The notes beneath the pieces were generated by a model, which saw only the letters and a program-made list of their open reading frames with translations, was not told the DNA's origin and made no database searches. From a bacterium (GTDB lineage Bacteria > JACRDZ01 > JAQUKH01): 54,379 nt of DNA. The position numbers were made by a program, and so were the translations under genes. This document shows positions 2,106 through 20,704 of the stretch, piece by piece. The DNA lies in NCBI GenBank assembly GCA_040754625.1, contig JBFMCF010000011.1, positions 1 to 54,379 of the forward strand. The letters are read 5' to 3'. How positions within the stretch are numbered: position 1 is the stretch's first letter; the number at the start of each line of letters is the position of its first letter.

Positions 2106-2152
2106 CTTTTTGTAAAAAAAATGTAACTTTTTTAAACAATTTTTAAAAGTTT

Positions 2153-4983: not shown

Positions 4984-5843
4984 ATGAGGGGCCGGGGTTC
5001 TGCCGGCCCTTCAAATATTTTATAAATAAAATTGCCTGAATAATAACACCCGGCAGCAGTAATGATCCCGGCGGCAACATCAATAACATAATGGAACCTG
5101 CAATAAACAGTGGCAATTGCAAGTAAAATAACGTCAATTAAAAAATAAAGGGACAGCCTGCGGTTATACTTAAAAGAAAAAAAAGTGACTATTAAAGCTA
5201 CAGCCACATGAGAACTTGGGAATGCCGCCCCGGGTTTTTCAGCATAGGCATAAATAAAATTCATTAAAGGCACAAATATAAATCCTTTCATTTTGGGGAA
5301 ATCCCATATCAAGGGTCCCACAACCGGCAGGAAAATATAAATCAAATAACAAAAATAAAATGTGAAACTTACTGTAAAAATAAAATGCTGAAACTTTTTA
5401 ATATCTTTAAAATAAAGAATCAGTCCAAGAACCGGGATTAAAAGATAATAGCTGAAATAAAAAAAATGAAAAATTTCTTTCAGCCATATATAAGGAAACT
5501 TTTCAGAAAACCATAAGCTTGGCTGTGATTTAAAAATAGCAAATTCAATATTTTGAAATAACGGATCTAAATATTCCTTAAAAAAAATATGATTCAAACG
5601 GCTGGTTTCTTCATATAAAAACGTATAAAGAACCGGCGGATACCAAAAACGCAAAAATCTGATAATTTTATTATTCTGTTTTTTATCAAATAAATAAATT
5701 AATAAAAATATCCCCGCGATAATAAAAAGATGGATTAAAACAAATGCAGCCCCGCCGGGCACACTGGGAAAAAAAAGAAGTATTATTAATAAAACTGTTA
5801 TTATATAACCTAAAGTAAATTTATCGGTTAAATTTAATCGCAT
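4980..5843 (-). CDS. PAP2-superfamily membrane phosphatase / lipid phosphotransferase
   Basis: 287 residues from the chosen start at 5843 (MRLNLTDKF). The reading frame stays open to 5909, but those 22 extra residues (Phe/Leu/Val-rich) translate a low-complexity AACTGAAAAACTAAAAAC repeat and are unlikely to be real. About six to seven membrane helices. PAP2 motif 2 is AFPSSH (209-212 with this start) and motif 3 is CRFHYVID (about 248-255), with the essential His and Asp; motif 1 (KxxxxxxRP) is not obvious, as in the PAP2_3 group that includes inositol-phosphorylceramide synthases. Reaction likely at the membrane on a lipid phosphate. Last gene of the run lipocalin-hydrolase-7036 gene-SDR-PAP2; its stop overlaps the convergent DUF2723 stop by 4 bases. 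Confidence 0.8.
   Translation of the reverse strand: MRLNLTDKFTLGYIITVLLIILLFFPSVPGGAAFVLIHLFIIAGIFLLIYLFDKKQNNKIIRFLRFWYPPVLYTFLYEETSRLNHIFFKEYLDPLFQNIEFAIFKSQPSLWFSEKFPYIWLKEIFHFFYFSYYLLIPVLGLILYFKDIKKFQHFIFTVSFTFYFCYLIYIFLPVVGPLIWDFPKMKGFIFVPLMNFIYAYAEKPGAAFPSSHVAVALIVTFFSFKYNRRLSLYFLIDVILLAIATVYCRFHYVIDVAAGIITAAGCYYSGNFIYKIFEGPAEPRPLI
4988..5009. terminator. GC-rich hairpin between convergent genes
   Basis: GGGCCGG (4989-4995) pairs with CCGGCCC (5003-5009) around a 7-base loop, inside the 3' end of the PAP2 gene and 6 bases past the DUF2723 stop. Downstream on plus is TTCAAATATTTT, a poor U-run. It could serve plus-strand transcription as a terminator. Confidence 0.4.
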
Positions 5844-5970
5844 ATCTTTAAAAACTACAATAAGAAACTGAAAAACTAAAAACTTAAAAACCAAAATACT
5901 AAATAGCAAAAAAATATTCCTGTGTATTTATGTTTTTCAGTTTTTTAGTTCTTTGGTCCTTAGTTTTTTA

Positions 5971-6963
5971 TTAAAGCCATCCATTTTCTCTATACCACCT
6001 TATAGTCTCTTTCACTCCGGTTTTTAACTCATATTCCGGTGTAAAACCAAGTTTCTTTAATTTATCTATTGAGCAGACCCATCCTTTTTGTGAAATTTCC
6101 AAGAATTTCTGCCTGTTTAAAAATGTGGCTTTCCCAAATAATTCTGTTGTAAATTCTGAAATAAAAGCGATGAAATAAAGCAAAAAATCCGGAATAAAAA
6201 AAGGTATTGTCTTCTTATTTAACGCTTTTTTGATTTCCGTAAGAATCTCTTTTAATTTATAGACAGTCCCGTCTGAAATGAAAAAAGTTTCTCCTTCTGC
6301 TTCTTTACTCTCCATAATAAAAAGAACAGCTTTAACCAGATCTTCTACAAAAATTACGCTGATTTCCATTTCCATATTGCCCACAAAGGGCATTATTCCG
6401 CTGTTAATCAGTTTAAAATATGTATAAATTCCCCTGTCCCCGGGACCGTAAACGGCAGTCGGGCGGATAATTGTTATCGGAATCTCGCGGGAAAACTTTT
6501 TTAATTCTTCTTCACCGGCAAGCTTACTCTGCCCATAGAAACTTATGGCGTTGGGGATGTCTGCCTCTTTCCTGGGATTTTGTATGGTCCCCGGTCCGGA
6601 AGCGGCAAGACTGCTTATATAAACAAATCTTTTTATTTTATCCTTGAAAACCGCGCAGGTTTCGATAAGATTTCTCGTCCCTTCCGCATTGACTGAAAAA
6701 AAATCTTCTCTGTTCCTTCCTTTTAACACACCAGCACAATGAATTATATACCCGGGAAAATCACCTTTAAATGAACCAAAGGCATCAACTAACGAGGATT
6801 TATTATCAACTGAACCATAAACGTAAGAAACAGGCAAATGTGAAAGAAAGCTGAGATTGCTTGTTTTTCTCACCAAACAACTAACTTCGTAATTCTTTTT
6901 AAGCAGTTCTTCAACTATTCTGCTCCCGATAAATCCATTTGCACCCGTAACTAAAACTTTCAT
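5971..6963 (-). CDS. NAD(P)-dependent epimerase/dehydratase (extended SDR)
   Basis: 330 residues. Rossmann nucleotide site TGANGFIG at 6-13, then VISS-like strand YISSLAASGPG (116-125) and catalytic YGQSK (Tyr143, Lys147). The substrate half (FISDGTVYKLKEI, FLIPDFLLYF region) resembles 3-beta-HSD/CerR-like members acting on lipids more than nucleotide-sugar epimerases, but that is a judgement from pattern only. Between a PAP2 gene and a putative membrane hydrolase. With the SPT-like enzyme and GNAT protein at 18-21 kb it is a candidate for 3-ketosphinganine/ceramide reduction (see findings). Confidence 0.8.
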   Translation of the reverse strand: MKVLVTGANGFIGSRIVEELLKKNYEVSCLVRKTSNLSFLSHLPVSYVYGSVDNKSSLVDAFGSFKGDFPGYIIHCAGVLKGRNREDFFSVNAEGTRNLIETCAVFKDKIKRFVYISSLAASGPGTIQNPRKEADIPNAISFYGQSKLAGEEELKKFSREIPITIIRPTAVYGPGDRGIYTYFKLINSGIMPFVGNMEMEISVIFVEDLVKAVLFIMESKEAEGETFFISDGTVYKLKEILTEIKKALNKKTIPFFIPDFLLYFIAFISEFTTELFGKATFLNRQKFLEISQKGWVCSIDKLKKLGFTPEYELKTGVKETIRWYRENGWL

Positions 6964-7035
6964 AATTTAAGGATTATATCATATAATAAAAACCCTTTCA
7001 GCCTAAACAAATTATTTTTCAAATTGATGTTATTT

Positions 7036-7824
7036 TTATAGTCCTAAATTGGTTAATATTTCCACCCTTGCCTTATAAACTTTTTCACTATAAGTTTCAC
7101 CGGTTCCCCTGCCTGTTTTATCCATGCTGTCAATCCCTGCCGCAATTTCTTCCCATTTATTAAAAGTTTCACTGATATCATATGATATATTTTGTTCTTT
7201 CAAAACTTTCCAGTACCAGCCATTCACATAATTTTCGAGATGAGTTAAAAAACCACCCGGGTTCCATGTTTTAATTATTCTATCTATTTCACCCCTGTTT
7301 ATTTCCCCGGCCTCAAATCTCAATAAAAACCTTTCTCTTAAACCGTCTAATAATATATCATAATTAATAGACCCGTCCGCCGTCTTTTCCCCATTAAAAT
7401 TGATTTTTCCCGTCCGGCTGTTTTTTTCTTCCCAAACCAAATTGGACTTTATGTCTATACTTTTATATAAAGGGTGGCTTACTTCAAAAGACATGTGAAA
7501 GTATGGATCCGGTAAATATAATCTGCTTCTGTGAATACGCGTATATTTTGGAATTTTATATTGTCCTTTTTCTCCTGTAATCACAGATACCGAATAACAA
7601 GGCATTAATCCTTTGATTGAACTTTTCCACCACACCGCCGTAATAACTGCATCTTTTACAGGTTTTCCGTCAACCGAATTTATAATCCGGCCGGTGAAAA
7701 CAGGAGTTTGATAAACCATTTTTAAAGTCTGGATAATAACAAAAATTACAAATATTATAAATCCTGCAATTTTTACTTTTTTTAACGTGGTCCTTTGAAG
7801 ATAAAAATTTTCTTGATACTTCAT
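7036..7824 (-). CDS. Membrane-anchored protein with carboxypeptidase-regulatory-like domain
   Basis: 262 residues. One membrane helix (about residues 19-38, IAGFIIFVIFVIIQTLKMV) with the rest outside. Right after it, TGRIINSVDGKPVKDAVITAVWW (46-68) opens a CarboxypepD_reg-like beta-sandwich, as in the gene at 148. The C-terminal half (YVNGWYWKVLKEQNISYDIS, KWEEIAAGIDSM) is helical and not recognised. Starts three bases after the preceding hydrolase gene ends, so the two are surely cotranscribed. Function unknown. Confidence 0.65.
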   Translation of the reverse strand: MKYQENFYLQRTTLKKVKIAGFIIFVIFVIIQTLKMVYQTPVFTGRIINSVDGKPVKDAVITAVWWKSSIKGLMPCYSVSVITGEKGQYKIPKYTRIHRSRLYLPDPYFHMSFEVSHPLYKSIDIKSNLVWEEKNSRTGKINFNGEKTADGSINYDILLDGLRERFLLRFEAGEINRGEIDRIIKTWNPGGFLTHLENYVNGWYWKVLKEQNISYDISETFNKWEEIAAGIDSMDKTGRGTGETYSEKVYKARVEILTNLGL

Positions 7825-7827
7825 AAA

Positions 7828-8247
7828 TTACAAATCAGTTTTTGAAGGTATTATAAAAGCTTTTTCCCGGCGCCACAGAAATGAATAAAGCCATTTAATG
7901 TATGGTTTATTAAAATGGTCCAGTAATATATGCTGTCCAAAACCGATAAGCGTCCCTGTTATCCATAAATTCCAGCCTGTCAGCCATGCAGTCATTAATA
8001 AAATAAACAGCAGTTCCCAGCTGTGAAGGCATATATATGTTTTCACATTCAGCTTTTCACTATATATGTGCAAAAATTCTTTCAAATCGAACCTGAAATT
8101 AAACTCGATAAGGTAATCAATAAAATGGTCAATATCAATTAAGATGCCGGATAAAAAAGACACAAACGTAAAAATCCACGATTTAAAAACCATATGCAGT
8201 ATGCCTGAAATAAAAGCGGAGAAAGCGATATGGTATTTTATTTTCAT
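7828..8247 (-). CDS. YdjM-like (DUF457-type) putative membrane-bound metal-dependent hydrolase
   Basis: 139 residues, three to four membrane helices. Conserved polar residues sit where this family has them: H7 near the start (KIKYHIAFSAF), DIDHFIDY at about 38-45, LHSWEL at about 74-79 and GQHILLDHF at about 104-112. These His/Asp clusters are the presumed metal ligands. The family is poorly characterised (YdjM is LexA-regulated in E. coli); substrate unknown. 30 bases downstream of the lipocalin gene. Confidence 0.65.
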   Translation of the reverse strand: MKIKYHIAFSAFISGILHMVFKSWIFTFVSFLSGILIDIDHFIDYLIEFNFRFDLKEFLHIYSEKLNVKTYICLHSWELLFILLMTAWLTGWNLWITGTLIGFGQHILLDHFNKPYIKWLYSFLWRREKAFIIPSKTDL

Positions 8248-8277
8248 AATATATTATCCCGTCCGGCCCAGAGAAAA

Positions 8278-8820
8278 TTATTTAAAATATCCCCGTTTGA
8301 ATACAATGTCCTGGTCAACGATTACACACTTATCAACATCGAAATCCAGGTTTCTTGCTACGTCGATCAATTCATTTGCCCGGTCTATACTCAAGGCCAT
8401 ATCCCGTGCCAATATCCAAAAATAAGATTTGTTATTCCCGCATACCAGCGCATATGAATAATTTTCTTTATCCAGAAAAATTATATTATATCCCGTATAA
8501 AATGGCCAGCTAAAAGATACTTTCAACCTGCCGGTACCGGGGCTTGAAACGAAATACGCTTTTCCCTTTACCGAAACCCATTTTTTTGTATCAATATTAA
8601 ACCCGTTGTTTACTATATCTATTCCCCCGTCTTTCCTGAGCGTGTATGTTGCGGATACATTTGTCAACCCTTTTTCAAACTTGTTGTCTAAACGTATTAT
8701 TTCATACCATGTTCCTGTAAACTTATTAATATCAAAACCATCAACCGCCTTTAAATCTCCAGGGATGCCCACACATCCGGCTGAAAATAAAAATAATCCA
8801 AGAAATATAAGTTTTTTCAT
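8278..8820 (-). CDS. blc: Bacterial lipocalin lipoprotein
   Basis: 180 residues, lipobox FLFSAGC (Cys16). The lipocalin signature follows: VDGFDINKFTGTWYEI, then RLDNKFEKGL, and the C-terminal block YFWILARDMALS. Blc proteins sit on the outer membrane and bind lysophospholipids or fatty acids; a role in membrane maintenance fits the lipid-related neighbours. Start supported by AAGGAG (CAAAAGGAGATATAAAATG) and a TATAAT box about 20 bases further upstream. First gene of the minus-strand run ending at the PAP2 gene. Confidence 0.9.
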   Translation of the reverse strand: MKKLIFLGLFLFSAGCVGIPGDLKAVDGFDINKFTGTWYEIIRLDNKFEKGLTNVSATYTLRKDGGIDIVNNGFNIDTKKWVSVKGKAYFVSSPGTGRLKVSFSWPFYTGYNIIFLDKENYSYALVCGNNKSYFWILARDMALSIDRANELIDVARNLDFDVDKCVIVDQDIVFKRGYFK

Positions 8821-8967
8821 TTTATATCTCCTTTTGTTTAAAATTATAACAAATTTAGTGATCTGTTACATAAATTTTTAATAATTCATGGGAAAACAAT
8901 TTATTATATTGATTAAATAATAATATTATGGTATAGGTTAATTTAAAACATAAACGGCTGTTTAAAA

Positions 8968-9848
8968 ATGGGATTATTAACAAAAGGCGCTGCAAATTCC
9001 AAAGAGAATCCGCCGGATATTTTATTAGATATAATTTTGTTTTTTGCCACGATTGTCCTGGCGTGGTTCGAAAAATGGGCGGTTAAAGATATCCTGTGGA
9101 GTTTATGGATTTCAAGTCTCATTCTGGGGTATAGCTATATTATTACCTCAATTATCTCCGCTCTTTTAAGAGGCAGTCCAGCATTTTTTTATAATGAAGA
9201 AAAATCCGCCCGGCTTCCCCTGGAGTTTCAGACCATATTAATGAATATTTTTGTTTTATTTGCTGTATTTATGTTTTTCCGCTGGTCATTATTATTCAAA
9301 ATGATGCTTATTATTGGTCTGCCGGGTTTTATACTGGCCATTGGGGTAATTTTGCGCGATATTAAGAAATGGGACTTTATCCCGGATACAAACAACCTGC
9401 CGGTTCGTATTATTATGCTGCTCCCTATAAGTCTATTTTTGCTTGGATTTTTTACACTCCACTTTTTAGGATTTCATTTTGTCCACAGTATTTTTTTAAA
9501 CGGCTTTTTCCCTTTGGTCCAGGATAATCCTTTTGGCAAAACGCCCAAAGGGACAATGGTGTTATTTGGGGACTTAACTGTTTTATCAATCAAAAACTAC
9601 TGGCCTTTTATTGTGCTAAGCGCTTTGTCAAGGACAGAATTTATCTCGCCGCCTTCCGTAACCCTGAAGGCCCGTCTGCGATGTTCAAGCCTTATATCAA
9701 TGTCATCAGAATGCATTTTATGATTTTTATTATCGGCATTTTAGGCATGCTGGGGCTGAAATCTTTCATTATATATATCACTTTGTTTTTATATTTCTTT
9801 CCTTTAAGCCATTTTATAACAGAGTTTAAAAATAAACCGTTAGACTAA
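8968..9848 (+). pseudogene. DUF6498-like membrane protein gene, frameshifted near its 3' end
   Basis: The first frame (from 8968) encodes about 220 residues of a polytopic membrane protein: helices near 18-36, 46-66, 88-130, 140-165, then HFLGFHFVHSIFLNGFFP and YWPFIVLSALS. From about 9630 that frame becomes low quality (SRTEFISPPSVTLKARLRCSS) and stops at 9723, while another frame picks up AAFRNPEGPSAMFKPY, then VIRMHFMIFIIGILGM, and runs to a TAA at 9846-9848. The second part matches what DUF6498 relatives carry at this point (an RMH motif then a final helix pair). So one indel between about 9620 and 9650 splits an otherwise intact gene. Either a genuine recent mutation or a sequencing/assembly error. 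Confidence 0.7.
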
Positions 9849-9860
9849 ACCGGTTTTTTT
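9834..9860 (+). terminator. Rho-independent terminator for the DUF6498-like gene
   Basis: AAACCG (9834-9839) pairs with CGGTTT (9851-9856), followed by a continuing T-run (TTTTTTT to 9860). The hairpin spans the shifted-frame stop codon at 9846-9848, which supports that stop as the natural gene end. Short stem, hence moderate confidence. Confidence 0.45.
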
Positions 9861-12800
9861 ACGGTTCTAAAACGGTGAACCCATTGCGCAGAACGGCCTG
9901 CTCATGCCTGGAATTTAGAATTTTTATATTATATTTCCCCTGGGATATTCCGGCAGGAACAGGGACGCTCAGATTATGATAATCGATAAAATTAACAGGC
10001 CCTGCGGTTATTTCCGCCTTAAACCTGTGTATAATCTCAAGCCCAAAGTCCGAATCGGCGATATACGCATAATCTCCCGCGATTTTTACCGCCGCGATAT
10101 GTCCTGAAGTATCAACACCTCCGGCAGGCAAAGGATATCCGGGGTCAGAAATATCAACAATTTTTAAACCGTCCCGCCCTGCCGCAATATACATGTAGTT
10201 TCCCTCAACAAAAATATCCAGGATATTCCCCTGCATTTTAAAACTTGAGGATATTTCCGGATGGCCGGGGCTTTTGACATTTATTACTGTAAATCCCTCC
10301 GCAAAATCCGCGGCATAAACATAATTTTCTGAAACGTAAACCCGGCGCACATCGCCCTTTGTTCCTGCACGGCCCATTATAAACGGTTTTTTAGGGTCGC
10401 TTATATCAACTATAAACAGCCCCGGTTTTCCCGCGGCAATATAAGCATAGAGGCCTGACACATAAACATCGTAAGCGGTCCCGATTGTATCCAGAGAACT
10501 TGCAATCACAAACTCACGAGGGTCACTGACATCGATAATATTTAATCCCCCGTCGCCGGCCGCATAAACAAAATTATCGGAAGCATGTATATCATTAACC
10601 GTGCCCGGCAAATCAATGATTCCTGTCATAACAGGATGGGAAGGATCCAGAATATTTATTATATCAATACCGCCGGATTTGTCTGCAAGGTAAATATAAC
10701 TGTCCATGATGCAAACATCCGCCGCGTCGCCGGGGACCAAGATATTTCCCGCTATTACCGGGCCGGAAGGGTCGCTTATATCTATTATTTCAAGACCCTC
10801 TTTTCCATCGGCAACATACGCATAATTTCCGGAAACACAGAGGCCCGAAGCCTGACCCGGGGTTGAAACACTGCCTGAGATGCTGGAATTAATGGGGCTT
10901 GTTATATTTATTATCTCAAGGCCTGATTTCCCGGCGGCCGCGTACACGTATTCATCTGCCACAAACAGGGCTTTTACTTCATCCGGGGTCGTTTCTCTGC
11001 CTTTTAATAAACGCGGCTGGGAGAAATCAAACAGGCTTATCACCTGCATGCCCGAGAACTTATCAGCAACATAAACGTAACCGCCCGACACGTAAATTCC
11101 CTTATCATAACGCCCTGAGGCATAAGTCCTCATCGCGTATCCGGGCGTGTCAATATTTTTTGTCATGACAGGGTGATCAGGATCATCCACATTTATTATA
11201 TCCACACCGGTCCTGCCAACGGCCGCGTAAACAAAATTGCTGTCAAAAAAAACACCAACCGCCCAATCGGAAGTTTTTAGACTGTTTGAAATAACGGGAT
11301 GCGAAGGGTCGGATATATTTACAATTGAAAGGCCCATCCAGCTATCCGCCACATAAGCGTAACTGCCGGAAACATAAACATCGCTCGCGTGACCGGGGGT
11401 ATCGATGCTTCCGGCTATGCGGGGGGCCGCCGGGTCAAATATATCGATGATCTGAAGGCCCGCGTTACGGCAGGCGACATAAGCATAGTTTCCCGAGACA
11501 TCGATACCTGAAGCATTGCCCGGAATTTTGACATTGCCGGTAAGATAAGGTTTTGAGGGGTCAACAATATTTATATTTACTATATGCAATCCGCTGTTTT
11601 TAGCGGAAACATACGCGTAACTGCCTTTAACATGGACATCCTGCGCAATATCGGAAAAGTTTATATTCCCGGATATCACAGGCCTCACCTTGTCCCGGAT
11701 ATTTATTATCTCAAGGCCTGAACTGCCGTCAGCAAGATAGGCGTAATCGCCTGCAATAAATATACCCTGGGTATCACCGGGAGTATCGACACTGCCCGAG
11801 ATGTAAGGCCCTCCCGTGCTAAAATAGACCCTGCACGTTGAATCAAAATTCTCGCCGTTGATGGTTATTGTGGCGGAAGCAGCACCGTTTGCCGGAATAA
11901 CCGATTTAATCACAGGCGGGGCGGCGTAAGACAGCCCTTTTAAAAAAATCAAAAACAGAAATAAAAACTTTTGTATAATTGAAACAATGGTGGACGCTGC
12001 TCCGGGTTTTGACAAGCGTCTTGCGTTGTCCTGCATTCTTAAAAGCTTATCTTTATCGTCCAGTAATTTATCTATTTTATAAGTTATTGTCGGAAAGTTA
12101 TTACACCTTATCGCGACTCCCTCCTCCAGAAAATGGTCAGTGTTTCGCGTTTCCTGCCCGGGAATGGGATTTACAATAACAAGCGCCAATCCCCTCGCCA
12201 GTGCTTCGGACGATGTCAAACCTCCCGCCTTTCCCACAAGAATATCAGAGGCCGCCATAAAAATATCCATTTCTTTTGTAAACCCTATAATTTTCATTGG
12301 ATGACTGGAATTTTTTGATTTCAAAAGTTTGTTTTCGAGGTTTTTGTTCTTTCCGCAGATTACAATAATCTGAACAGGATTCTTTACATTCTGGACAGAT
12401 GAAACCAGTGATTCCACAGGCCCGACCCCGAAGCCTCCCGCGGAAACCAGTATCGTTGTCCTGTCAGGATTTAAACCGAGTTTTGACCGGGTATCTTTTT
12501 TCGATTTTTCAACGGAAAAAACAGGGTCAATCGGAATACCTGTAATATGAATCCTTTCTTCCGGGACACCTAAAGCTTTGAGATATTCCTTGGTTTCTTC
12601 GATGGCAACAAAATACCAGTCAATGTCACGGAATATCCATGTCGCGTGCGCGTCGAAATCCGTAATTACTATCCCGATTTTTGAATTTATAATCCCCTTT
12701 TTTCTTAGATGAAGAAGAATTACAGGGGGCAGGAAATGCGTGCAGATTATAATATCCGGATTTTCATTCTTTATTAATTTTATCAAAGGCGTGCTGTTAA

Positions 12801-13107
12801 GTTTATCCAGCGCCAACCTTCGTTTAAAAAATTTTCCGGGCTTGTCCAGTTTATTATAAATCCAGCCCAGTAAATCCGGACCTTTATTCATAAGCTCAAC
12901 ATATAAATCCGAATAAAGCCTCTTGAAAACCGGATTGGTATACTGTAAAACCTCAATGTGCCTCGCATTGATACCTTTACCGGCAAACGCGGATACAAGC
13001 GCGTCCGCCGCCCTTAGATGCCCGGCACCTGCGGCGGCTGAGAGAATCATTATTGAATTTTTGCCTGATGGATATCCTTTGATTCTGTTTAACATGCCTT
13101 CTTTCAT
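9859..13107 (-). CDS. GT28/MGDG-synthase-like glycosyltransferase fused to a TIG domain and 14 LVIVD repeats
   Basis: 1082 residues. Residues 17-375 are a cytoplasmic diacylglycerol glycosyltransferase of the MGDG synthase/UgtP type: GAGHLRAADAL (27-37), THFLPPVILL, TDFDAHATW (149-157), GGFGVGP (224-230), and the UDP-sugar site GKAGGLTSSEAL (292-303) with PIPGQE. Immediately after comes a hydrophobic segment (about 372-392, IVSIIQKFLFLFLIFLKG then LSYAAPP) that looks like a signal peptide, a TIG-like domain (about 398-434) and fourteen LVIVD repeats (each around GxYAYVAxGxxGLxIIDISDPxxP, about 436-1045), the number needed for two seven-bladed propellers. Two genes' worth of protein in one uninterrupted frame. 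Probable topology: catalytic half inside, propeller outside. Confidence 0.85.
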   Translation of the reverse strand: MKEGMLNRIKGYPSGKNSIMILSAAAGAGHLRAADALVSAFAGKGINARHIEVLQYTNPVFKRLYSDLYVELMNKGPDLLGWIYNKLDKPGKFFKRRLALDKLNSTPLIKLIKNENPDIIICTHFLPPVILLHLRKKGIINSKIGIVITDFDAHATWIFRDIDWYFVAIEETKEYLKALGVPEERIHITGIPIDPVFSVEKSKKDTRSKLGLNPDRTTILVSAGGFGVGPVESLVSSVQNVKNPVQIIVICGKNKNLENKLLKSKNSSHPMKIIGFTKEMDIFMAASDILVGKAGGLTSSEALARGLALVIVNPIPGQETRNTDHFLEEGVAIRCNNFPTITYKIDKLLDDKDKLLRMQDNARRLSKPGAASTIVSIIQKFLFLFLIFLKGLSYAAPPVIKSVIPANGAASATITINGENFDSTCRVYFSTGGPYISGSVDTPGDTQGIFIAGDYAYLADGSSGLEIINIRDKVRPVISGNINFSDIAQDVHVKGSYAYVSAKNSGLHIVNINIVDPSKPYLTGNVKIPGNASGIDVSGNYAYVACRNAGLQIIDIFDPAAPRIAGSIDTPGHASDVYVSGSYAYVADSWMGLSIVNISDPSHPVISNSLKTSDWAVGVFFDSNFVYAAVGRTGVDIINVDDPDHPVMTKNIDTPGYAMRTYASGRYDKGIYVSGGYVYVADKFSGMQVISLFDFSQPRLLKGRETTPDEVKALFVADEYVYAAAGKSGLEIINITSPINSSISGSVSTPGQASGLCVSGNYAYVADGKEGLEIIDISDPSGPVIAGNILVPGDAADVCIMDSYIYLADKSGGIDIINILDPSHPVMTGIIDLPGTVNDIHASDNFVYAAGDGGLNIIDVSDPREFVIASSLDTIGTAYDVYVSGLYAYIAAGKPGLFIVDISDPKKPFIMGRAGTKGDVRRVYVSENYVYAADFAEGFTVINVKSPGHPEISSSFKMQGNILDIFVEGNYMYIAAGRDGLKIVDISDPGYPLPAGGVDTSGHIAAVKIAGDYAYIADSDFGLEIIHRFKAEITAGPVNFIDYHNLSVPVPAGISQGKYNIKILNSRHEQAVLRNGFTVLEP

Positions 13108-13136
13108 TTTATAGTGTAAATTTTATCAATATTTTT

Positions 13137-13736
13137 CTACTTTATCCCCGTCTTCTTTTTTATTTCTTCAACATCCGCTTCTTTTATAAATTTAACAATA
13201 TTCCCCCATATCTCATGAAATCCGAAATCGCCTTTGGTCATTTCCTCGATTGCCTCATCTTTCGTCCAGCCAAGGGCCGCAATCCTATACATCGCAACCA
13301 TAAGCCCCGTCCTGTCCGCACCATGCTGGCAGTGGACAAAAACCGGCGTTTTTGTTTTATCAGTTACAATCTTTAAAAATTTTACAACCTCTTTTTCTTC
13401 CGGATGCCATGCTTTTACATAAAGATGTTCTCCTTTAATGTCAGTGGTCCCTATTTCATCCTTATCCGAATGAAATGACCGCAGATTAATAACAGTCTTA
13501 ATTCCCATCTTTTCTAATTCCCTAATTCCTTCAGAGGTCGGCTGGGCCCCTCTGTATAATTCATCCGTAACTTTGAAAAAATTAGGCAGTCCCGCTTTCT
13601 CAACAGGTATTGCCCAATGTTTTGCTTGAAAAATTTTATTGGAAGTCCCTTCTGATTCAGCATACAAAAATCTATACAAGGATATAAAACTGACCATTTG
13701 AAAAACAACCAGCAGTCTGAGGATATGATTCTTCAT
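13137..13736 (-). CDS. Exported dual-specificity / tyrosine phosphatase-like protein
   Basis: 199 residues from the start at 13736, chosen because AAAGGAG lies 7-8 bases before that ATG; an upstream Met at 13775 lacks one. A hydrophobic N-terminus (ILRLLVVFQMVSFISLYRFLYA) indicates export. The catalytic P-loop HCQHGADRTG has the nucleophilic Cys and the Arg of CX5R phosphatases; an upstream GIKTVINLR strand and a later DEAIEEMTKGDFGFH helix fit the DSP fold. Members act on phosphotyrosine, phosphoinositides or other phosphates; a periplasmic location makes a lipid or sugar phosphate plausible. It ends 29 bases before the GT28-LVIVD gene and is probably cotranscribed with it. Confidence 0.8.
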   Translation of the reverse strand: MKNHILRLLVVFQMVSFISLYRFLYAESEGTSNKIFQAKHWAIPVEKAGLPNFFKVTDELYRGAQPTSEGIRELEKMGIKTVINLRSFHSDKDEIGTTDIKGEHLYVKAWHPEEKEVVKFLKIVTDKTKTPVFVHCQHGADRTGLMVAMYRIAALGWTKDEAIEEMTKGDFGFHEIWGNIVKFIKEADVEEIKKKTGIK

Positions 13737-13758
13737 TACCTGCTCCTTTGAAATAACT

Positions 13759-13792
13759 GTATTATAACAATTCAATAAGTTAATATAAAGAA
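13759..13792 (-). repeat. 34-bp sequence shared with 18229-18262, probably a promoter copy
   Basis: TATTATAACAATT, one variable base, AATAAGTT, one variable base, ATATAAAGAAA is repeated in the same orientation 4.47 kb away with two mismatches. On minus it holds a TATAAT box (13761-13766) 24 bases upstream of the phosphatase start; the other copy is 25 bases upstream of the gene at 17981-18205. So it is most simply a duplicated promoter, but the pair also brackets the accessory patch between them. Confidence 0.6.
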
Positions 13793-13889
13793 ATTTTTGA
13801 TTCCTCTTCCTATGATCAATCTATATAAAAATTATGCTTGCAAAGTTTGATTTAATATAATAGCATATATTGAGATCAAAGGAGAAAAT

Positions 13890-14124
13890 TTGAAAAGAGT
13901 ACGCATCGATAACGAGGTTTCCAGCGCATTGAAAAACAAGGCGAAAGAAAAATAATTCTTTTATGCTGGAGGTCATAAAAGAAGCCTTGGGTCTAAAGAA
14001 AAAAAGAAGTATTGTACATACCGACCTGGATCATCTGGCCGGCACATGGAGTGAGAAAAATTTTAAAGATTTCAAAAATAAAACTCATGATTTTGAGGCC
14101 ATCGACAAAGATATGTGGAAATAA
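13890..14124 (+). pseudogene. VapB-type antitoxin gene with a poly-A frameshift
   Basis: A TTG start at 13890 with AAAGGAG at 13878-13884 gives KRVRIDNEVSSALKNKAKEK and a stop at 13953-13955. One base out of frame, NNSFMLEVIKEALGLKKK, then HTDLDHLAGTWSEKNF and a tail ending KDMWK run to TAA at 14122-14124. The LDHLAGTWSE block is typical of a VapB-like antitoxin family that precedes PIN-domain VapC toxins. Removing one A from the A5 run at 13948-13952 restores a single frame of about 77 residues. No vapC follows; the next sequence is an ATPase stub on the other strand. Confidence 0.65.
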
Positions 14125-14196
14125 TCGAAATAATGGTCTCTGCTGACCCTTGTTTAGACAAGCGGCGGCCATTTGCCCTGTTAAAAATCTGGAGGT

Positions 14197-14391
14197 TGAA
14201 ATTATTCGAATATTGTCTTTTATAAAATCAACATTTTGTTCATTTATAACCTGCTCACTGTCTCTTAAATAATAAATATGTGTTTTATAACCATCAACAT
14301 CCTTAAGGAAATGGCAGAATTTCAGGAGATGAGATGCTATCATATTTTCAAACCTAATATTTTCGTCTTTAATCTCTGACCAATCCAGCAT
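14197..14391 (-). pseudogene. Fragment of an AAA ATPase, DUF4143 region
   Basis: The segment MLDWSEIKDENIRFEN, then ASHLLKFCHFLKDVDGYK and IYYLRDSEQ is the conserved C-terminal part of the AAA_14/DUF4143 ATPase family (normally xRFENxVASHLLK...ELRYLRDxEGREVDF). The ATPase domain is missing and the C-terminal nuclease-like strand degenerates after about residue 65, although the frame stays open to 13993. It overlaps the last 23 bases of the HEAT gene. A decayed remnant. Confidence 0.6.
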
Positions 14392-17383
14392 TTTTATTCT
14401 GAATATTATCCAGAGCCTTTTTTACTTCCTGTTTAACATCGATCTCCTCATCGCCTTTTAAGACATTTTCAAGAGGTTCTACTGCGGCAGTATCGCCCAT
14501 TTTACCCAAAGCACACGCGGCTCCGACGCGAGCGTAACTGTAGCCATCTTTCAGAGTAATAAATAAGGGCTTCAATGCTGGTTTGCCTATCCTGCTTAAA
14601 ACATCCGTTAACTTAAACCAGACATCGCTTCGATAGCTGTATTTCAACGCCCAGATACAGGAATCAATCGACGGTTCGCCTATTTTGACTAAGGTATTCA
14701 CAGCCGCGTTTTGAATATTACTATTTGAGTCTTTATACAATAGAAGAATCAGCCTCTTCGCCACCGGCGCGCCGAGGTTAGCACATTTATCCCATTCCTG
14801 TTTTGCAATAAGATATATTACCTTTTCTTCTTCGTTTGAGGCTGACCATTTCAATTTATCCAGAGTTTCAGCCGCGGCTTTTCTGATTAAAGCATCCTTG
14901 TCCAAAAGTAAATCAATCAAAGGTTTTTCCGCCGGTTTGCCAAAATTTACGCATTTGTCCCATTCATGTTTTGCGATATGGTAAAAATTTTTCTCTTCTT
15001 CTTTTTCCAGTTTATAATTTAGTTTTTCCAGAGATTCCGCCACGCCTTTGCGTATTTTCCAGTCTTCGTCTCGAAGCGCTGAAACCAGTGGCTTTACCGC
15101 GGGGCCGCCTATCTTCACGCAGCTATCCCATTTTTCTTTTCCGATATAGCAAAATGCTTTTTCTTCTGGTTCAATCCAGATAACCTCTTCCAGTATAGTC
15201 GATGCTACTTTATGGGATTTTGTATTTTGCAATTCGGAAATTAATATTTTCCCACATCTGAATGAAGACAAGGCTTGAATAGCTGTATTCCGCACATCAG
15301 GGATATCATCTTCTAATAAATTAATAATGAGTTTGACTGAACGACAATCCCCTATACGGCCTAAGCTATACGCTGTTATCCTTTTCACATGGGCTTCTTT
15401 ATCCCCCAACGTAAGAATCAATGGTTCAACTGCCGTACTGTCTTTAATTATTCCTAAAGAAGCCGCCGCGTTTGAGCGAATAAGCCAATCTTCATTTTTT
15501 AAGGCATTTATTAATGGCTCCACTGCTAATTTACCCATCCCACCAAGAGTTTCAACCGCATCTACACGAATCTCCCTGTTTTTATCTTTAAGTTTTGGAA
15601 TTATTATCTTTATATATTCCTTATCCCCTCCAGCCTTTATTTTTTTCAGTGCCCTTACAGCCTCTTTCTGCCCAGTAAATTTAGTAAGCGGTTTTATTGC
15701 TCTTTTATCTCCTATTCTTCCTAATGTTATTATTGCATTTTCTTGAATTTTATTAGCTTCTTTGTTCTGAAGTGCAGTAATAAGAGGTTTTACTGCGGGT
15801 TTACCGATATTTACCAATGTATTTATAACAACTTCTCTCTCAATATATCCCCAGTTGAATTCTCGCCAAAGATAAATAAGCCGCTCTACTGCAGGAGTGC
15901 CAATTTCTACACATTTGTCCCATTCTTGTTTGGCAATATAATAAGAAACCTTTTCTGAATCATTTGCTGGTATCCAACCTAATCTACTTAAAGCCTCTGC
16001 CGATGCTTTTCTAACCCTTTCATCATTATATTCAAGTTTTTCAACAAGCGGCTTCACTGATCTTTTATCCGGTATTCCACCCAGAACATCCGCCGATTTA
16101 GAAAGTGCTATTGGGGAGTTACTTGTCTTAAATAATTTCAGTACCGGAACTATTGCTGGTTCACCAATTTTAGTCAATGAGTCTATCTCGTCACGAGGTA
16201 TACTATTTGAAAGCAAAGAAACAAGTGGCTTAGATACTGGTGATTTAATATTACCTAATGCTTCAACTGAAATTTTTCGAATCTCTCGGTCAGGATCTTC
16301 GGTCTTTTCAATTATTGGTTCAATAGCTCTTTCGTCGCCTATTTTCCCCAAGGATGTCACAGCGCCTTTACGAACGCTAATATCATTATCTTTCAATGCC
16401 TCAATAAGCGGAACCAAAGCACGTTCGCCTATTTTGACGCACATGTCCCAATCCTTTTTTGCTATGTAATACGATATTTCTTCATCTTCAGTAGATGGCT
16501 TCCATTTCGCTCTTCCAAGGGTTTTCGCCGCTAATTCTCTTATACTGCTATTCTTGTCTTTAAGTAAGGGGATAACTCCCTTGCTTGGCGGGTCGTCTAT
16601 TTTAAGTAAAACATCCGAGTTAGAGCTAAGTATCAGCTCTTCGGGCACAGTTTCTTTTATCTTGTTCAAGGACGTGACCACTTCATTCCTGACATCCTCT
16701 TCTTTGTGTTTCAATAAAGGAATAAGCGGTTTAACTGCCTTGGTATCTTTTATCTCACCCAAGGCGTAAACTGCTTCACAAAGGACATCCGTGTCATTAC
16801 TGCCGAGCTGGGAAATAAGGGGTTCAACCGCCTGGCTATCTTTTAACTTACCAAGCGAATAGATTACGCTGATTTTCAAATCAGTATCTTCGGATTTTAA
16901 CAGTGTAATTAACGTTTTAACTGGTTTTTTATCCCCTATCTCGCCAAGGGCATCGATTGATTTTATGCGTATTTCCTTATTATTATTTTTATTCTTTGCT
17001 TCTTTCATTAAAAAAGATACTGCTTTTTCATCTTTAATTTTTCCAAGAGAAATTAGTATTTCTCTTCGAGATCTTAAATCATCTTTTTCTCTTTTATAGA
17101 ATTTGATTAGATTTTGCGTTACACTTTTGTCTCCTATTTCACCCAAAGCTTCTATAACTTTACACCGGACAAAAGCATGTTTATCATTGAGAGTTTCTAA
17201 AAGCAATGGGATAACTTTAATGTTTTTTGTTTTCCCGAGTTCCTCTATAAACTTGCTTCTTACATGCCAATCTTCATTTTTTAATTGTTCAAATCCTTCA
17301 TAAGTAGTAGTTTGAGGTTCGCGTAATTTTACACAATTTAAAGAAAGACAAAAAATTGCTATTATTAATATTATTTTTTTCAT
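14369..17383 (-). CDS. HEAT-repeat lipoprotein with five internal 'YIAK-EWDKCV' units
   Basis: 1004 residues from the start at 17383, chosen because GAGGA sits 8 bases before it; an alternative Met at 17404 lacks one and would overlap the upstream gene. Signal peptide with lipobox SLNC. The rest is an array of PBS-lyase-type HEAT repeats (pattern ALGxIGDxxAVxPLIxxLKDxDxxVRxxA). Interspersed are five copies of an unusual module: SYYIAKKDWDMCVKIG, SYYIAKQEWDKCVEIG, CYIGKEKWDSCVKIG, FYHIAKHEWDKCVNFG and YLIAKQEWDKCANLG, each leading into a HEAT unit. HEAT solenoids are binding scaffolds; target unknown. Follows the nucleotidyltransferase gene after 17 bases. Confidence 0.85.
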   Translation of the reverse strand: MKKIILIIAIFCLSLNCVKLREPQTTTYEGFEQLKNEDWHVRSKFIEELGKTKNIKVIPLLLETLNDKHAFVRCKVIEALGEIGDKSVTQNLIKFYKREKDDLRSRREILISLGKIKDEKAVSFLMKEAKNKNNNKEIRIKSIDALGEIGDKKPVKTLITLLKSEDTDLKISVIYSLGKLKDSQAVEPLISQLGSNDTDVLCEAVYALGEIKDTKAVKPLIPLLKHKEEDVRNEVVTSLNKIKETVPEELILSSNSDVLLKIDDPPSKGVIPLLKDKNSSIRELAAKTLGRAKWKPSTEDEEISYYIAKKDWDMCVKIGERALVPLIEALKDNDISVRKGAVTSLGKIGDERAIEPIIEKTEDPDREIRKISVEALGNIKSPVSKPLVSLLSNSIPRDEIDSLTKIGEPAIVPVLKLFKTSNSPIALSKSADVLGGIPDKRSVKPLVEKLEYNDERVRKASAEALSRLGWIPANDSEKVSYYIAKQEWDKCVEIGTPAVERLIYLWREFNWGYIEREVVINTLVNIGKPAVKPLITALQNKEANKIQENAIITLGRIGDKRAIKPLTKFTGQKEAVRALKKIKAGGDKEYIKIIIPKLKDKNREIRVDAVETLGGMGKLAVEPLINALKNEDWLIRSNAAASLGIIKDSTAVEPLILTLGDKEAHVKRITAYSLGRIGDCRSVKLIINLLEDDIPDVRNTAIQALSSFRCGKILISELQNTKSHKVASTILEEVIWIEPEEKAFCYIGKEKWDSCVKIGGPAVKPLVSALRDEDWKIRKGVAESLEKLNYKLEKEEEKNFYHIAKHEWDKCVNFGKPAEKPLIDLLLDKDALIRKAAAETLDKLKWSASNEEEKVIYLIAKQEWDKCANLGAPVAKRLILLLYKDSNSNIQNAAVNTLVKIGEPSIDSCIWALKYSYRSDVWFKLTDVLSRIGKPALKPLFITLKDGYSYARVGAACALGKMGDTAAVEPLENVLKGDEEIDVKQEVKKALDNIQNKNAGLVRD

Positions 17384-17400
17384 ATAATTTTCCTCATTTT

Positions 17401-17988
17401 TCACTGCCGTAGGCCTCTTTTTAGAATTTTTTCCAAATCATCTGATATTTCTGGCATTTCCAAAACAGATGAGAATTCCCTGACCCATTTGCGGATCCGT
17501 TTTAAATCGAGTTTCGGATTGGCGCCCAGTATTGATTCAATATCTATAAGATCCTTCGGGCGGTGAGCGATTGCCTTCATAATTATCAGGTTTTCCGGAG
17601 ATGGAAGGGGAAGAGAAAAATTCCCTATTTTCATTAATACAGCATTTTCAATGGCTTCGTGTTCAAACGGCAAAAATCCAATTGAAATATCTATATCAAT
17701 ACTGGTTCCTCTGTGTTTCATTAATATTACATTTGTCTTTTTTGTGAATTCGATGACATTTTTGATGCGGGGAATAAATCCATATTTCTCGCCTTTTTCA
17801 ATGAATTTATTTAGTAAATTGGGATTGATAATTATAACACTATCAATATCTTGTGTTGTACGGGGTCGTCCAAGGATAGAAGATGCTATACCGCCAATTA
17901 TTATACCTTTAATGTTTTCTGATTTTAACCATTTAATAAAATCTCTCAAGACCGGGAAAGGTAAATCTGTTCTTATTTTTTTAGGCAT
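17401..17988 (-). CDS. Nucleotidyltransferase (AbiEii/MNT-like)
   Basis: 195 residues. The N-terminal half has the minimal nucleotidyltransferase core: IIIGGIASSILGRPRTTQDIDSV, with the GG helix and the DxD metal pair in TQDID, and a later acidic strand (SIDIDISIG). C-terminal helices (SPENLIIMKAIAHRPKDLIDIE) are those seen in AbiEii/DUF6036-type proteins. Such enzymes act as toxins that transfer nucleotides to tRNA or proteins, or as orphan NTases. It overlaps the small upstream gene by 8 bases, the usual arrangement for a two-gene toxin-antitoxin or antitoxin-like unit. Confidence 0.75.
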   Translation of the reverse strand: MPKKIRTDLPFPVLRDFIKWLKSENIKGIIIGGIASSILGRPRTTQDIDSVIIINPNLLNKFIEKGEKYGFIPRIKNVIEFTKKTNVILMKHRGTSIDIDISIGFLPFEHEAIENAVLMKIGNFSLPLPSPENLIIMKAIAHRPKDLIDIESILGANPKLDLKRIRKWVREFSSVLEMPEISDDLEKILKRGLRQ

Positions 17989-18205
17989 GATATAACTTTT
18001 TAAGTTTTATCCATCGTTTTCTTACTGCAAGCTCTTCTGATTTTAGGGTCTCAATCCATCCAAAATCTTTTGCCCATTTCATAAGTATTTTTAACTGATG
18101 CAATTTTTTAAGAGGAGAAAGTTTTTGCGGCTCTTTTCTCTGAATTTCATTAACTATTCTCCACCGATTTTTGAACTCTAAAGCTTTTTCTTTTGAAATT
18201 TTCAT
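17981..18205 (-). CDS. Small basic helical protein paired with the nucleotidyltransferase
   Basis: 74 residues, rich in Lys/Arg/Glu, predicted all-helical (KALEFKNRWRIVNEIQRKEP, KLHQLKILMKWAKDFGW). AGAAGGAT precedes the ATG. It overlaps the nucleotidyltransferase by 8 bases, and small genes of this type recur just upstream of AbiEii-like NTases, where they may act as antitoxin or specificity partner. No domain recognised; role inferred from context only. Confidence 0.6.
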   Translation of the reverse strand: MKISKEKALEFKNRWRIVNEIQRKEPQKLSPLKKLHQLKILMKWAKDFGWIETLKSEELAVRKRWIKLKKLYHA

Positions 18206-18228
18206 TATTCTATCCTTCTGAAATTATC

Positions 18229-18262
18229 TTATTATAACAATTTAATAAGTTTATATAAAGAA
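18229..18262 (-). repeat. Second copy of the 34-bp promoter-like repeat
   Basis: Matches 13759-13792 with two mismatches. The minus-strand TATAAT (18231-18236) lies 25 bases before the start codon at 18205, the same geometry as in the other copy. Confidence 0.6.
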
Positions 18263-18312
18263 ATATTTTTGAATTTGCTTATGTTCTGCTACGCTATGGC
18301 CAGTAATAAATT

Positions 18313-19428
18313 TCACAGTTTTTTATCGTAAACTCGGTAGGTCTTGTAAGGGTCGGAGCCCATGCGGACGAGGATTTTGTTCATCATTTCATTGCTTTCT
18401 AATATCCATGAATATTCTACCTTTTTATAACCGTTTTTCACGGCATTTTTGAAACCAGTGTTATAAAGCAAAACGTCTATGCCCCAGTGACGGTATTCCT
18501 TCACCACGCCCATTGTTAAAACCCTCAAGGCATTTATTTTTCTTTTTTCAAGAAGCAGTTTAATCAAACCGAAAGGAAGAAGCCTCCCCTTTATTTTTTT
18601 CAGGGCAATGTTCAAATCGGGAAGCGCGAGAAAAAATGCCACTGGTTTACCGTCGATTTCCGCGAATAAAATCATATTTTTATCCATTATCATCTTAAAA
18701 TCATTCGCGGTCTTAGTAAATTCCTTATCGGTCATCGGCACAAAACCCCAGTTTTCTTCCCATGCGGAAGAGTATACTTTTTTGATTATTTCTACATCCT
18801 GCCAAAATTTTCTGGTATTAATCGGCCTTACAATTACATTTCTTCTTTTCATTAACCTTTCAGAAACTTTTTTAATATATTCAGGGATATCGCTAAACTC
18901 AAAGAAATATGCGAATAAATCCATCTCTTTTTTAAAACCGGAAGCTTCCAGGAAGTCAGCGTAATAGGGAGGATTGTAAGACATCATTAAAACAGGCGGG
19001 GAATCATATCCTTTCACCAGGAGCCCGCATTCCTCATTTGTTGAAAAATTCATCGGCCCGCGGGCGATATCCATCCCTTTTGATTTAAGCCATAAAGAGG
19101 CTTTTGACAATAATTTTTCCGCGACCGCGTAATCTTTTTCGCATTCAAAAAAACCGAAAAAACCAACCTTGTCTTTGTAAAAATTATTATGATTAAAGTT
19201 AATATGCGCTGAAATACGGCCAACCGGTTCTCTGCCTTTAAAAGCCAGGAAAAGTTTTATTTCCGCGTGCTCATAAAAAGGATTTTTTTTAGGATTAAAG
19301 AATTCCTCGCGTTCAATCAAAAGCGGAGGCACCCAATTAGGGTCATTCTTGTAAAGTTCGTAAGGAAAGCGGATAAATATATGTAAATCTTTCTTTGATT
19401 CAACTTCTTTGATCGTAATTTCAGACAT
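18313..19428 (-). CDS. GNAT-fold N-acyltransferase, candidate bacterial ceramide synthase
   Basis: 371 residues, about twice a simple GNAT domain. Conserved family blocks: NDPNWVPPLL (30-39), FFNPKKNPFYEHAE, VGFFGFFEC, RGPMNFSTNEECGLLV (about 122-137), MMSYNPPYYADF, and in the second half LTMGVVKEYRHWGIDVLLY, which has the acyl-CoA site pattern of GNATs. It lies 46 bases downstream of the serine palmitoyltransferase-like gene on the same strand. Bacterial ceramide synthase (bCerS, described in Caulobacter) is a GNAT-family protein encoded near spt; whether this sequence belongs to that exact subfamily I cannot test. A general N-acyltransferase is the safe call. Confidence 0.7.
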   Translation of the reverse strand: MSEITIKEVESKKDLHIFIRFPYELYKNDPNWVPPLLIEREEFFNPKKNPFYEHAEIKLFLAFKGREPVGRISAHINFNHNNFYKDKVGFFGFFECEKDYAVAEKLLSKASLWLKSKGMDIARGPMNFSTNEECGLLVKGYDSPPVLMMSYNPPYYADFLEASGFKKEMDLFAYFFEFSDIPEYIKKVSERLMKRRNVIVRPINTRKFWQDVEIIKKVYSSAWEENWGFVPMTDKEFTKTANDFKMIMDKNMILFAEIDGKPVAFFLALPDLNIALKKIKGRLLPFGLIKLLLEKRKINALRVLTMGVVKEYRHWGIDVLLYNTGFKNAVKNGYKKVEYSWILESNEMMNKILVRMGSDPYKTYRVYDKKL

Positions 19429-19445
19429 AAATTTTATACCGAAAA

Positions 19446-19474
19446 ACTAAAAAACTGAAGAATGATTTCAGTTT
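19446..19474 (-). terminator. Hairpin between spt-like gene and GNAT gene
   Basis: On minus, AAAACTGAA and TTCAGTTTT form a 9-bp stem with a short loop, followed by TTAGTTTTTC. It directly abuts the stop of the spt-like gene. It would limit but need not block readthrough into the GNAT gene. Related ACTGAAAAACTAAAA low-complexity sequence also occurs near 5865-5960. Confidence 0.45.
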
Positions 19475-20665
19475 TTAGATTATTTTCAGCTCTCTCGCCA
19501 CCTTTTTAATTTTTGACAGCGCAAAATCAATTTGAACATTAGTATGGGTGGCCATCAAACTAAGCCTTATAATACAAGCGCCCTCAGAAACCGCCGGCGG
19601 GACCGCGGGATTCACAAAAATACCTTCATCCTGAAGCATCTTGCACATTTTAAAACATGTAATACTGTCGCCGACATATACGGGAATGACAGGGGTTTCG
19701 CTCCTTCCGACATTCAATCCCAAATCTTTTGTTCCATTCAGCATTCTTTTGGTATTTTGCCATAATTTTTCAATCCTCTCAGGTTCGCGCTTCATTACAT
19801 GTAACGCCGCGCTCACCGACGCCACATTAGCGGGCGGCATACTTGCGCTAAAAATCAATTCCCGCGAATGGTGCTTTAAATAATGGATTGTGTCTTTATC
19901 AGAGGCAATAAAACCTCCCAGTGAAGCCAAAGATTTGCTAAATGTGCCCATAATTAAGTAAACTTTTTCCGTCAAATTAAAATGAGAGGCAGTGCCTGCG
20001 CCATTTTTGCCTAAAACGCCAATTGAATGGGCATCGTCAAGCATTATCGAGGCGTTATATTTCTCCGCCGCGTCAACAATCCCGGGAAGGGCAACTATAT
20101 CGCCTTCCATACTGAATATACCGTCGGTAACAACCAATTTGCTTTTATCAGCGGGAATACTTTTTAAAACACGGCCAAGGTCATCTATGTCATTATGCTC
20201 ATATTTCAAAGTCTTCCCGAAGCTCAGGCGGCATCCGTCAACAATACTCGCGTGGTTATATTTATCCGCAATAATATACTCATTACGGCCGATTAATCCT
20301 GAAAGAGTACCAAGGTTTACCTGGAACCCGGTTGAAAATAAAAGAGACGCCTCTTTCCCGACAAAATCGGCTAATTCTTCTTCCAGCTGGACGTGGATGT
20401 CAAGCGTGCCGTTTAAAAACCTCGAGCCGGCACAACCTGTCCCATATTTTTCAACCGCGTCTAATGACGCCTTTTTAACCTCAGGGTGAGTGTTAAGGCC
20501 AAGATAACTGTTGGACCCGAACATGAGAATTTTCTTGCCGCCTATTATGACTTCTGTATCTAACCCGGATTCAATCTCGCGGAAATAGGGATAAAGCCCC
20601 ATAGCCTGCACCTTCTTTGCAAGTTCAAATTTTCTTACTTTTTCGAGAATATGGTTATTTTTCAT
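19475..20665 (-). CDS. spt: PLP-dependent alpha-oxoamine synthase, probably serine palmitoyltransferase
   Basis: 396 residues, normal for the KBL/AONS/SPT family, which condenses an amino acid with an acyl-CoA. PLP lysine Lys244 in GTFSKSLASLGGF; DDAHSIG at 210-216; HASIVDG at 138-144; SNSYLGL at 51-57; YGTGCAGSRFLNGTLDIH at 74-91. The combination LYPYFREIES near residue 24, GTGCAGSRFLNGTL and TFSKSLASLGG is that of bacterial serine palmitoyltransferases; AONS and KBL normally have TLGKA at the lysine. I therefore prefer SPT (L-serine + palmitoyl-CoA to 3-ketosphinganine) over BioF; no biotin genes are nearby. 40 bases downstream of ecfT. Confidence 0.75.
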   Translation of the reverse strand: MKNNHILEKVRKFELAKKVQAMGLYPYFREIESGLDTEVIIGGKKILMFGSNSYLGLNTHPEVKKASLDAVEKYGTGCAGSRFLNGTLDIHVQLEEELADFVGKEASLLFSTGFQVNLGTLSGLIGRNEYIIADKYNHASIVDGCRLSFGKTLKYEHNDIDDLGRVLKSIPADKSKLVVTDGIFSMEGDIVALPGIVDAAEKYNASIMLDDAHSIGVLGKNGAGTASHFNLTEKVYLIMGTFSKSLASLGGFIASDKDTIHYLKHHSRELIFSASMPPANVASVSAALHVMKREPERIEKLWQNTKRMLNGTKDLGLNVGRSETPVIPVYVGDSITCFKMCKMLQDEGIFVNPAVPPAVSEGACIIRLSLMATHTNVQIDFALSKIKKVARELKII

Positions 20666-20704
20666 AAAAATCCTTTACAATAAACTCAGAGTTTACAACA
20701 AAAT

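Follow-up and report, generated by a model that had tools for sequence, protein, structure and literature searches.

An open reading frame that joins a UgtP/MGDG-synthase-type glycosyltransferase to a TIG/LVIVD propeller protein and probably reflects a recent gene fusion

Introduction

The propeller of the kinase PknD from Mycobacterium tuberculosis is of the six-bladed NHL type. One account of this protein describes a cytoplasmic kinase, a membrane segment and an extracytoplasmic beta-propeller in a single chain (PMC3601408). In bacterial sphingolipid synthesis, the genes for serine palmitoyltransferase (Spt), bacterial ceramide synthase (bCerS) and CerR are often clustered, and in Caulobacter Spt and bCerS are cytoplasmic and CerR is periplasmic, as described in two accounts (PMC11334938; PMC11087976). 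Here we analyze a DNA stretch of 54,379 nucleotides from an uncultured bacterium of groundwater type (the window; contig JBFMCF010000011.1, assembly GCA_040754625.1), for which an earlier note, made from the letters alone, had proposed that a glycolipid synthase is fused to exported LVIVD repeats.

Results

On the minus strand, which the earlier note had left unstated, the gene forms one open frame with an ATG start that encodes 1082 amino acids and contains no internal stop, and the layout given there (GT28, then a signal-like helix, TIG and LVIVD, with no stop between them) holds (Table 1). The antisense frame on the plus strand was considered as coding sequence and ruled out, as it has many stops. 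The GC content is 42% for the glycosyltransferase part and 46% for the propeller part and exceeds that of most neighbours, two genes of the window having 43% and 45%.

Table 1. Positions of the fused gene, its parts and the features around it in the window.
Feature	Position	Strand	Basis
Fused gene, 1082 codons + stop	9859..13107	-	open frame
Residues 1-379, UgtP/MGDG-synthase-type GT28 glycosyltransferase, complete to natural end	11971..13107	-	Pfam, relatives
Residues 380-395, signal-peptide-like segment KFLFLFLIFLKGLSYA	11923..11970	-	hydropathy, predicted signal peptidase site after A395
Residues 398-435, TIG/IPT domain first half	11803..11916	-	Pfam
Residues ~449-1027, 14 LVIVD repeats, beta-propeller fold (predicted)	10027..11763	-	Pfam, motif scan, model
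Residues ~1030-1082, split TIG domain second half	9862..10020	-	joined-halves profile score
Variable segment holding the fusion, 10.5 kb	7783..18307	.	~1.4 kb of two other genes instead in G001
Exported PTP/DSP-type phosphatase, directly upstream of the fusion	13137..13775	-	Pfam
Serine palmitoyltransferase, conserved flank	19475..20665	-	NCBIfam, 629 bits vs cut-off 640
371-aa protein beside Spt, conserved flank, no family match	18313..19428	-	collinearity
NAD epimerase/dehydratase-family protein, conserved flank	5971..6963	-	Pfam

An intact GT28 domain had been claimed for residues 1-375, and both Pfam domains lie above their cut-offs, MGDG_synth (PF06925) at residues 30-193 with 89.9 bits (cut-off 25) and the GT28 C-terminal domain at residues 219-371 with 39.3 bits (cut-off 22), the transferase being complete through residue 379. 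The motifs GAGH, GGLTSSEALA and NPIPGQE are all retained. The best NCBIfam model is UgtP diglucosyl-diacylglycerol synthase (PRK13609.1) with 237.8 bits and, as this score is below the equivalog cut-off of 500, the transferase should be considered a family-level relative and not an equivalog. The closest solved structures found by phmmer are the processive diacylglycerol glucosyltransferase 9wde and the plant MGD1 4wyi. The transferase of the fused gene is the sole complete member of its subfamily in the window genome (G000). A second copy, 61% identical, is present on contig C83 of this genome as a remnant of 68 codons, in a region (L028, 6207-9632) where it adjoins a C92 peptidase gene and a gene pair that we take to resemble AbiE; a relative of this C92 peptidase adjoins the transferase in genome G288.

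For the TIG domain at residues 398-435, Pfam gave 24.4 bits (cut-off 20.9), and the LVIVD repeats (PF08309) in tandem reached 362.7 bits. Fourteen repeats had been counted before and the same number was obtained in a motif scan, with starts at residues 455, 497, 541, 583, 625, 677, 720, 762, 804, 846, 887, 929, 971 and 1013, ten stretches being individually significant in Pfam. An AlphaFold model of residues 438-733 (seven repeats), for which residues 733-1028 of the same protein were the only other row of the alignment, is closed and all-beta (pLDDT 88.2, pTM 0.89) and matches WD40-type propellers, with TM values by query length of up to 0.80 (WDR55) among the matches listed. The full-length AlphaFold model, obtained from an alignment of three rows, had a pLDDT of 44.6 and was left out of the fold search. 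A period of seven was not seen in the similarity between repeats. Of the two seven-bladed propellers proposed earlier, the model of residues 438-733 supports one unit, and a closed pair, with repeats that show no period of seven and a poor full-length model, is a putative arrangement.

The first half of the TIG domain alone scored 26.6 bits over profile positions 1-39 and the second half alone (residues ~1030-1082) had no profile match. When both halves were joined, the score was 34.9 bits over profile positions 1-72, and joined halves from three related LVIVD proteins (G000, G001) scored 36.1, 40.2 and 38.4 bits. Nine controls in which the second halves were shuffled or reversed gave 24.7-27.7 bits. 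As the joined halves outscore both the first half and the controls, the repeats are placed within the TIG domain, and by these profile scores a split TIG domain with inserted propellers is the design of the window protein and of the LVIVD proteins of G000 C27, G000 C68 and G001. The TIG domain noted earlier is thus present after the signal, but it does not merely precede the repeats. As far as they were scanned, the more distant LVIVD proteins L015, L018 and L023 gave no match to a simple TIG pattern.

A search for the same architecture in relatives, which had been suggested earlier, covered 386 genomes, on which the result depends, as widening it by phylum brought only 2, 4 and 2 genomes. Matches to the transferase at 1e-20 were found in 55 of the 386, and an open frame with the transferase and more than 655 amino acids in one of these 55, which is the genome of the window. 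None of six other long transferase frames (G288, G204, G063, G269, G197, G221) has a propeller, their surplus length stemming from reading frame further upstream or from a short tail peculiar to each. The fused order was found in none of the other 54 transferase-bearing genomes, and in the window alone does the transferase continue beyond a normal end. A first scan of genome contigs with the whole fused protein as query gave no match, and close relatives in viral contigs were not detected by the patterns used.

In the relatives, the two halves are separate proteins. Genome G003, listed in the phylum of the window and the one genome of its taxonomic order, has the transferase alone, with 380 amino acids, 64% identity and a stop at the end; the transferase is also alone in G288 (60% identical) and in an Acidobacteria record (L065). 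The LVIVD protein stands alone in G001, a genome of the same genus, where it has 703 amino acids and shows 46% identity over the aligned length to residues 375-1082 of the window protein. It has its own methionine and signal, as the earlier note had expected of LVIVD proteins as separate exported proteins. Within positions 894-4316 of L032 (contig C51), the G001 LVIVD gene is located directly downstream of a gene for a protein with a VTT(DedA) and a PAP2 domain, which again is the setting of a lipid-phosphate enzyme. Genes for the transferase and the LVIVD protein were adjacent in no relative examined and, therefore, the neighbour state that would precede a fusion was not seen there.

Three separate transferases end with IVSIVLQKEKNNEK, IVSIILQQRA and IVSIVLEDTGRC, each followed by a stop, and in the window protein IVSIIQK is followed by FLFLF. 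The transferase half of the window protein stops where the separate transferases stop and then enters the signal core directly. A junction close to a normal transferase end and a normal secreted start had been described, and it is located more precisely at the natural transferase end and inside the signal peptide. At the DNA level, G003 reads TTACAAAAGGAAAAA and the window ATACAAAAGTTTTTA, and the LVIVD paralog on contig C27 begins with TTGAAAAAGGTTTTTG. The start of this C27 paralog and the transferase end (ACAAAAG) share an AAAAG micro-homology, which would be enough for a deletion. Separate genes in relatives are what would be expected from a recent fusion and are not counted as refuting it. 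Two separate, non-adjacent genes in relatives, the position of the junction and the lack of any sign of a broken assembly support the gene fusion suggested earlier. From these sequences, we take the gene to be a real, lineage-specific fusion in frame, probably of recent date and probably produced by a small deletion.

The hydrophobic segment consists of K380, a core of nine residues (FLFLFLIFL), K390 and GLSYA-APP, and the signal-peptide-like helix ending in LSYAAPP that had been described before was recovered at residues 380-395. The peak 19-residue hydropathy window of the whole protein is at residues 371-389, and the poor full-length model draws a single helix over residues 370-395. According to the -3/-1 rule, a signal peptidase site is presumably located after A395 (SYA-AP). 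In the window protein, the LVIVD half lacks an N-terminal signal on a separate protein, its signal-like segment being internal. From codon 359 up to the TIG domain there is neither an ATG nor a GTG, and a well-placed Shine-Dalgarno sequence is missing at the less common candidate starts TTG365, ATT374 and ATA378. The order of enzyme, lysine, short hydrophobic core, SYA-AP and exported module predicts an N-in/C-out insertion, and the combination of a short core with a good SYA-AP site favours cleavage after A395 over an uncut tether. The segment is therefore likely cleavable, and enzyme and propeller may part after export; the physical tie of glycolipid synthesis to an extracytoplasmic sensor, as proposed earlier, is a conjecture. 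To the complete reading, comprising a recent lineage-specific deletion fusion, N-in/C-out insertion and a cut after A395 that yields two products, we would give about an even chance of being correct.

If the segment remained uncut, the product would be a type II membrane protein in which a cytoplasmic transferase is attached to a periplasmic propeller, whose role would be to sense or retain a ligand of the envelope or to place the enzyme. The helix over residues 370-395 in the low-confidence model might cross the membrane as a whole, the tail IVSII of the transferase lengthens the hydrophobic stretch, and the account of PknD provides a precedent for linking an enzyme in the cytoplasm to a propeller outside the cell (PMC3601408). 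However, nine residues between K380 and K390 are short for a membrane anchor, SYA-AP is a good signal peptidase site, and the propeller is a free exported protein in relatives, so that an uncut protein seems unlikely, but is a serious contender.

The flanks of the variable segment carry genes of a lipid pathway. The serine palmitoyltransferase matches solved bacterial enzymes with an E value of 1e-148, its neighbour of 371 amino acids is, by resemblance, our candidate for bCerS, and the NAD epimerase-family protein is, also by resemblance, our candidate for CerR. The Spt locus that flanks the variable segment is collinear in G001 and its probable function is sphingolipid synthesis. As the fusion is located between Spt and the CerR-like gene, a sphingolipid acceptor is possible, and from the locus it is equally possible that the transferase uses a sphingolipid and not diacylglycerol. 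A membrane-spanning glycolipid synthase with an outside double propeller in a sphingolipid locus, in which glycosphingolipid synthesis would react to an outside ligand of the propeller or be directed to it, is in our view rather unlikely. In G288 (L066), the same phosphatase gene that lies upstream of the fusion precedes the transferase gene, behind an ABC exporter (Pfam ABC_membrane, ABC_tran) that we take to resemble MsbA. A conserved PTP-GT operon was considered and rejected, because the pair is present only in the window and in G288, the phosphatase is encoded elsewhere in G003 and G001, and L065 gave no match. Outside the variable segment, positions 24473-29311 encode a protein of 1612 amino acids that matches nothing in Pfam at 1e-5 or in NCBIfam at 1e-3.

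Within the variable segment, positions 14369-17404 encode a HEAT-repeat protein of 1011 amino acids with a lipoprotein-like start, and a gene for a DUF6036/AbiEii-type nucleotidyltransferase (17401-17988) lies directly upstream of it. On the plus strand, positions 13905-14121 hold the frameshifted remnant of a ribbon-helix-helix-type antitoxin (67% over 63 residues when compared to the intact L081 gene), indicating gene decay within the variable segment. With decayed genes around it, the fusion could be a functionless accident, that is, read-through of a decaying or transitional locus in which export or enzyme was lost and no function was selected. The segment differs between same-genus genomes and, besides the antitoxin remnant, the second transferase copy is cut to 68 codons. 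But neither half of the fusion has a frameshift, a stop or a large deletion, and its transferase has intact motifs and is the only complete one of the subfamily in the genome, which renders an accident improbable.

With regard to the assembly, a 141-base stretch spanning the junction is present in a single copy in the window genome, so that there is no repeat to invite a false join, and G001 contig C4 runs collinear with the window over positions 2127-7782 and 18308-22840 at 72-79% DNA identity, indicating that the contig is right on either side. Taken together, unique junction and collinear flanks make a misassembly unlikely. In a draft genome of 138 contigs and at a junction full of short homopolymers, one could suspect that two real neighbour genes were joined through the loss of a stop or an error of one base, and one extra base in the CAAAAG run would place a TTG further upstream in the reading frame of the signal. 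But the A run is just four long and transferase homology and signal core share one frame and abut directly, so that we regard such an artefact as very improbable.

Discussion

We propose that the ancestral pair would have been a UgtP/MGDG-synthase-family gene followed by one that encodes an exported propeller protein of the TIG/LVIVD type, and that a small deletion would have joined them in frame by eliminating the stop codon of the former, the spacer and the start of the latter. A single chain would be made in the cytoplasm, where the transferase would fold, and the internal signal would enter the Sec/SRP route in N-in/C-out orientation, with K380 inside and the propellers being exported. Signal peptidase would then most likely cleave after A395, leaving the transferase with a membrane tail and releasing the propeller into the periplasm. 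Such processing would mean a co-translational 1:1 supply of both proteins, whose function we infer.

If real, the fusion would be a clean natural case of how the merging of two genes can turn a signal peptide into an internal segment for membrane spanning or processing and join a cytoplasmic lipid enzyme to an exported protein. It raises the questions whether export and cleavage still take place when an internal signal follows a folded enzyme of 380 residues, and whether the glycosylation of lipids could be coupled to a ligand outside the cell. In a poorly known phylum, LVIVD repeats within a split TIG domain and the proximity to sphingolipid genes offer further leads. In the LVIVD literature covered, which included few subscription papers, no title or opening of an abstract mentioned a fusion to a glycosyltransferase.

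The window enzyme resembles UgtP/YpfP and plant MGDG synthase in its full catalytic domain, its glycine-rich N-terminal loop and the GGLTSSEALA/NPIPGQE region, but, in contrast to them, it runs on into an export signal and propellers. With LVIVD-repeat surface proteins (PF08309), as far as they are described in PMC2447325, the window protein shares 42-residue repeats, 14 copies and export in relatives and, like in those proteins, the seven-repeat unit is a predicted WD40-like propeller. In contrast to them, the window repeats lack their own start, are inserted in a TIG domain and are joined to a cytoplasmic enzyme. Like PknD, the window protein would combine a cytoplasmic enzyme, a putative membrane segment and a presumed outside propeller in one chain, a likeness for which no homology is claimed; whereas PknD has a kinase and a full transmembrane helix, the window protein has a glycosyltransferase and a signal-peptide-like segment.
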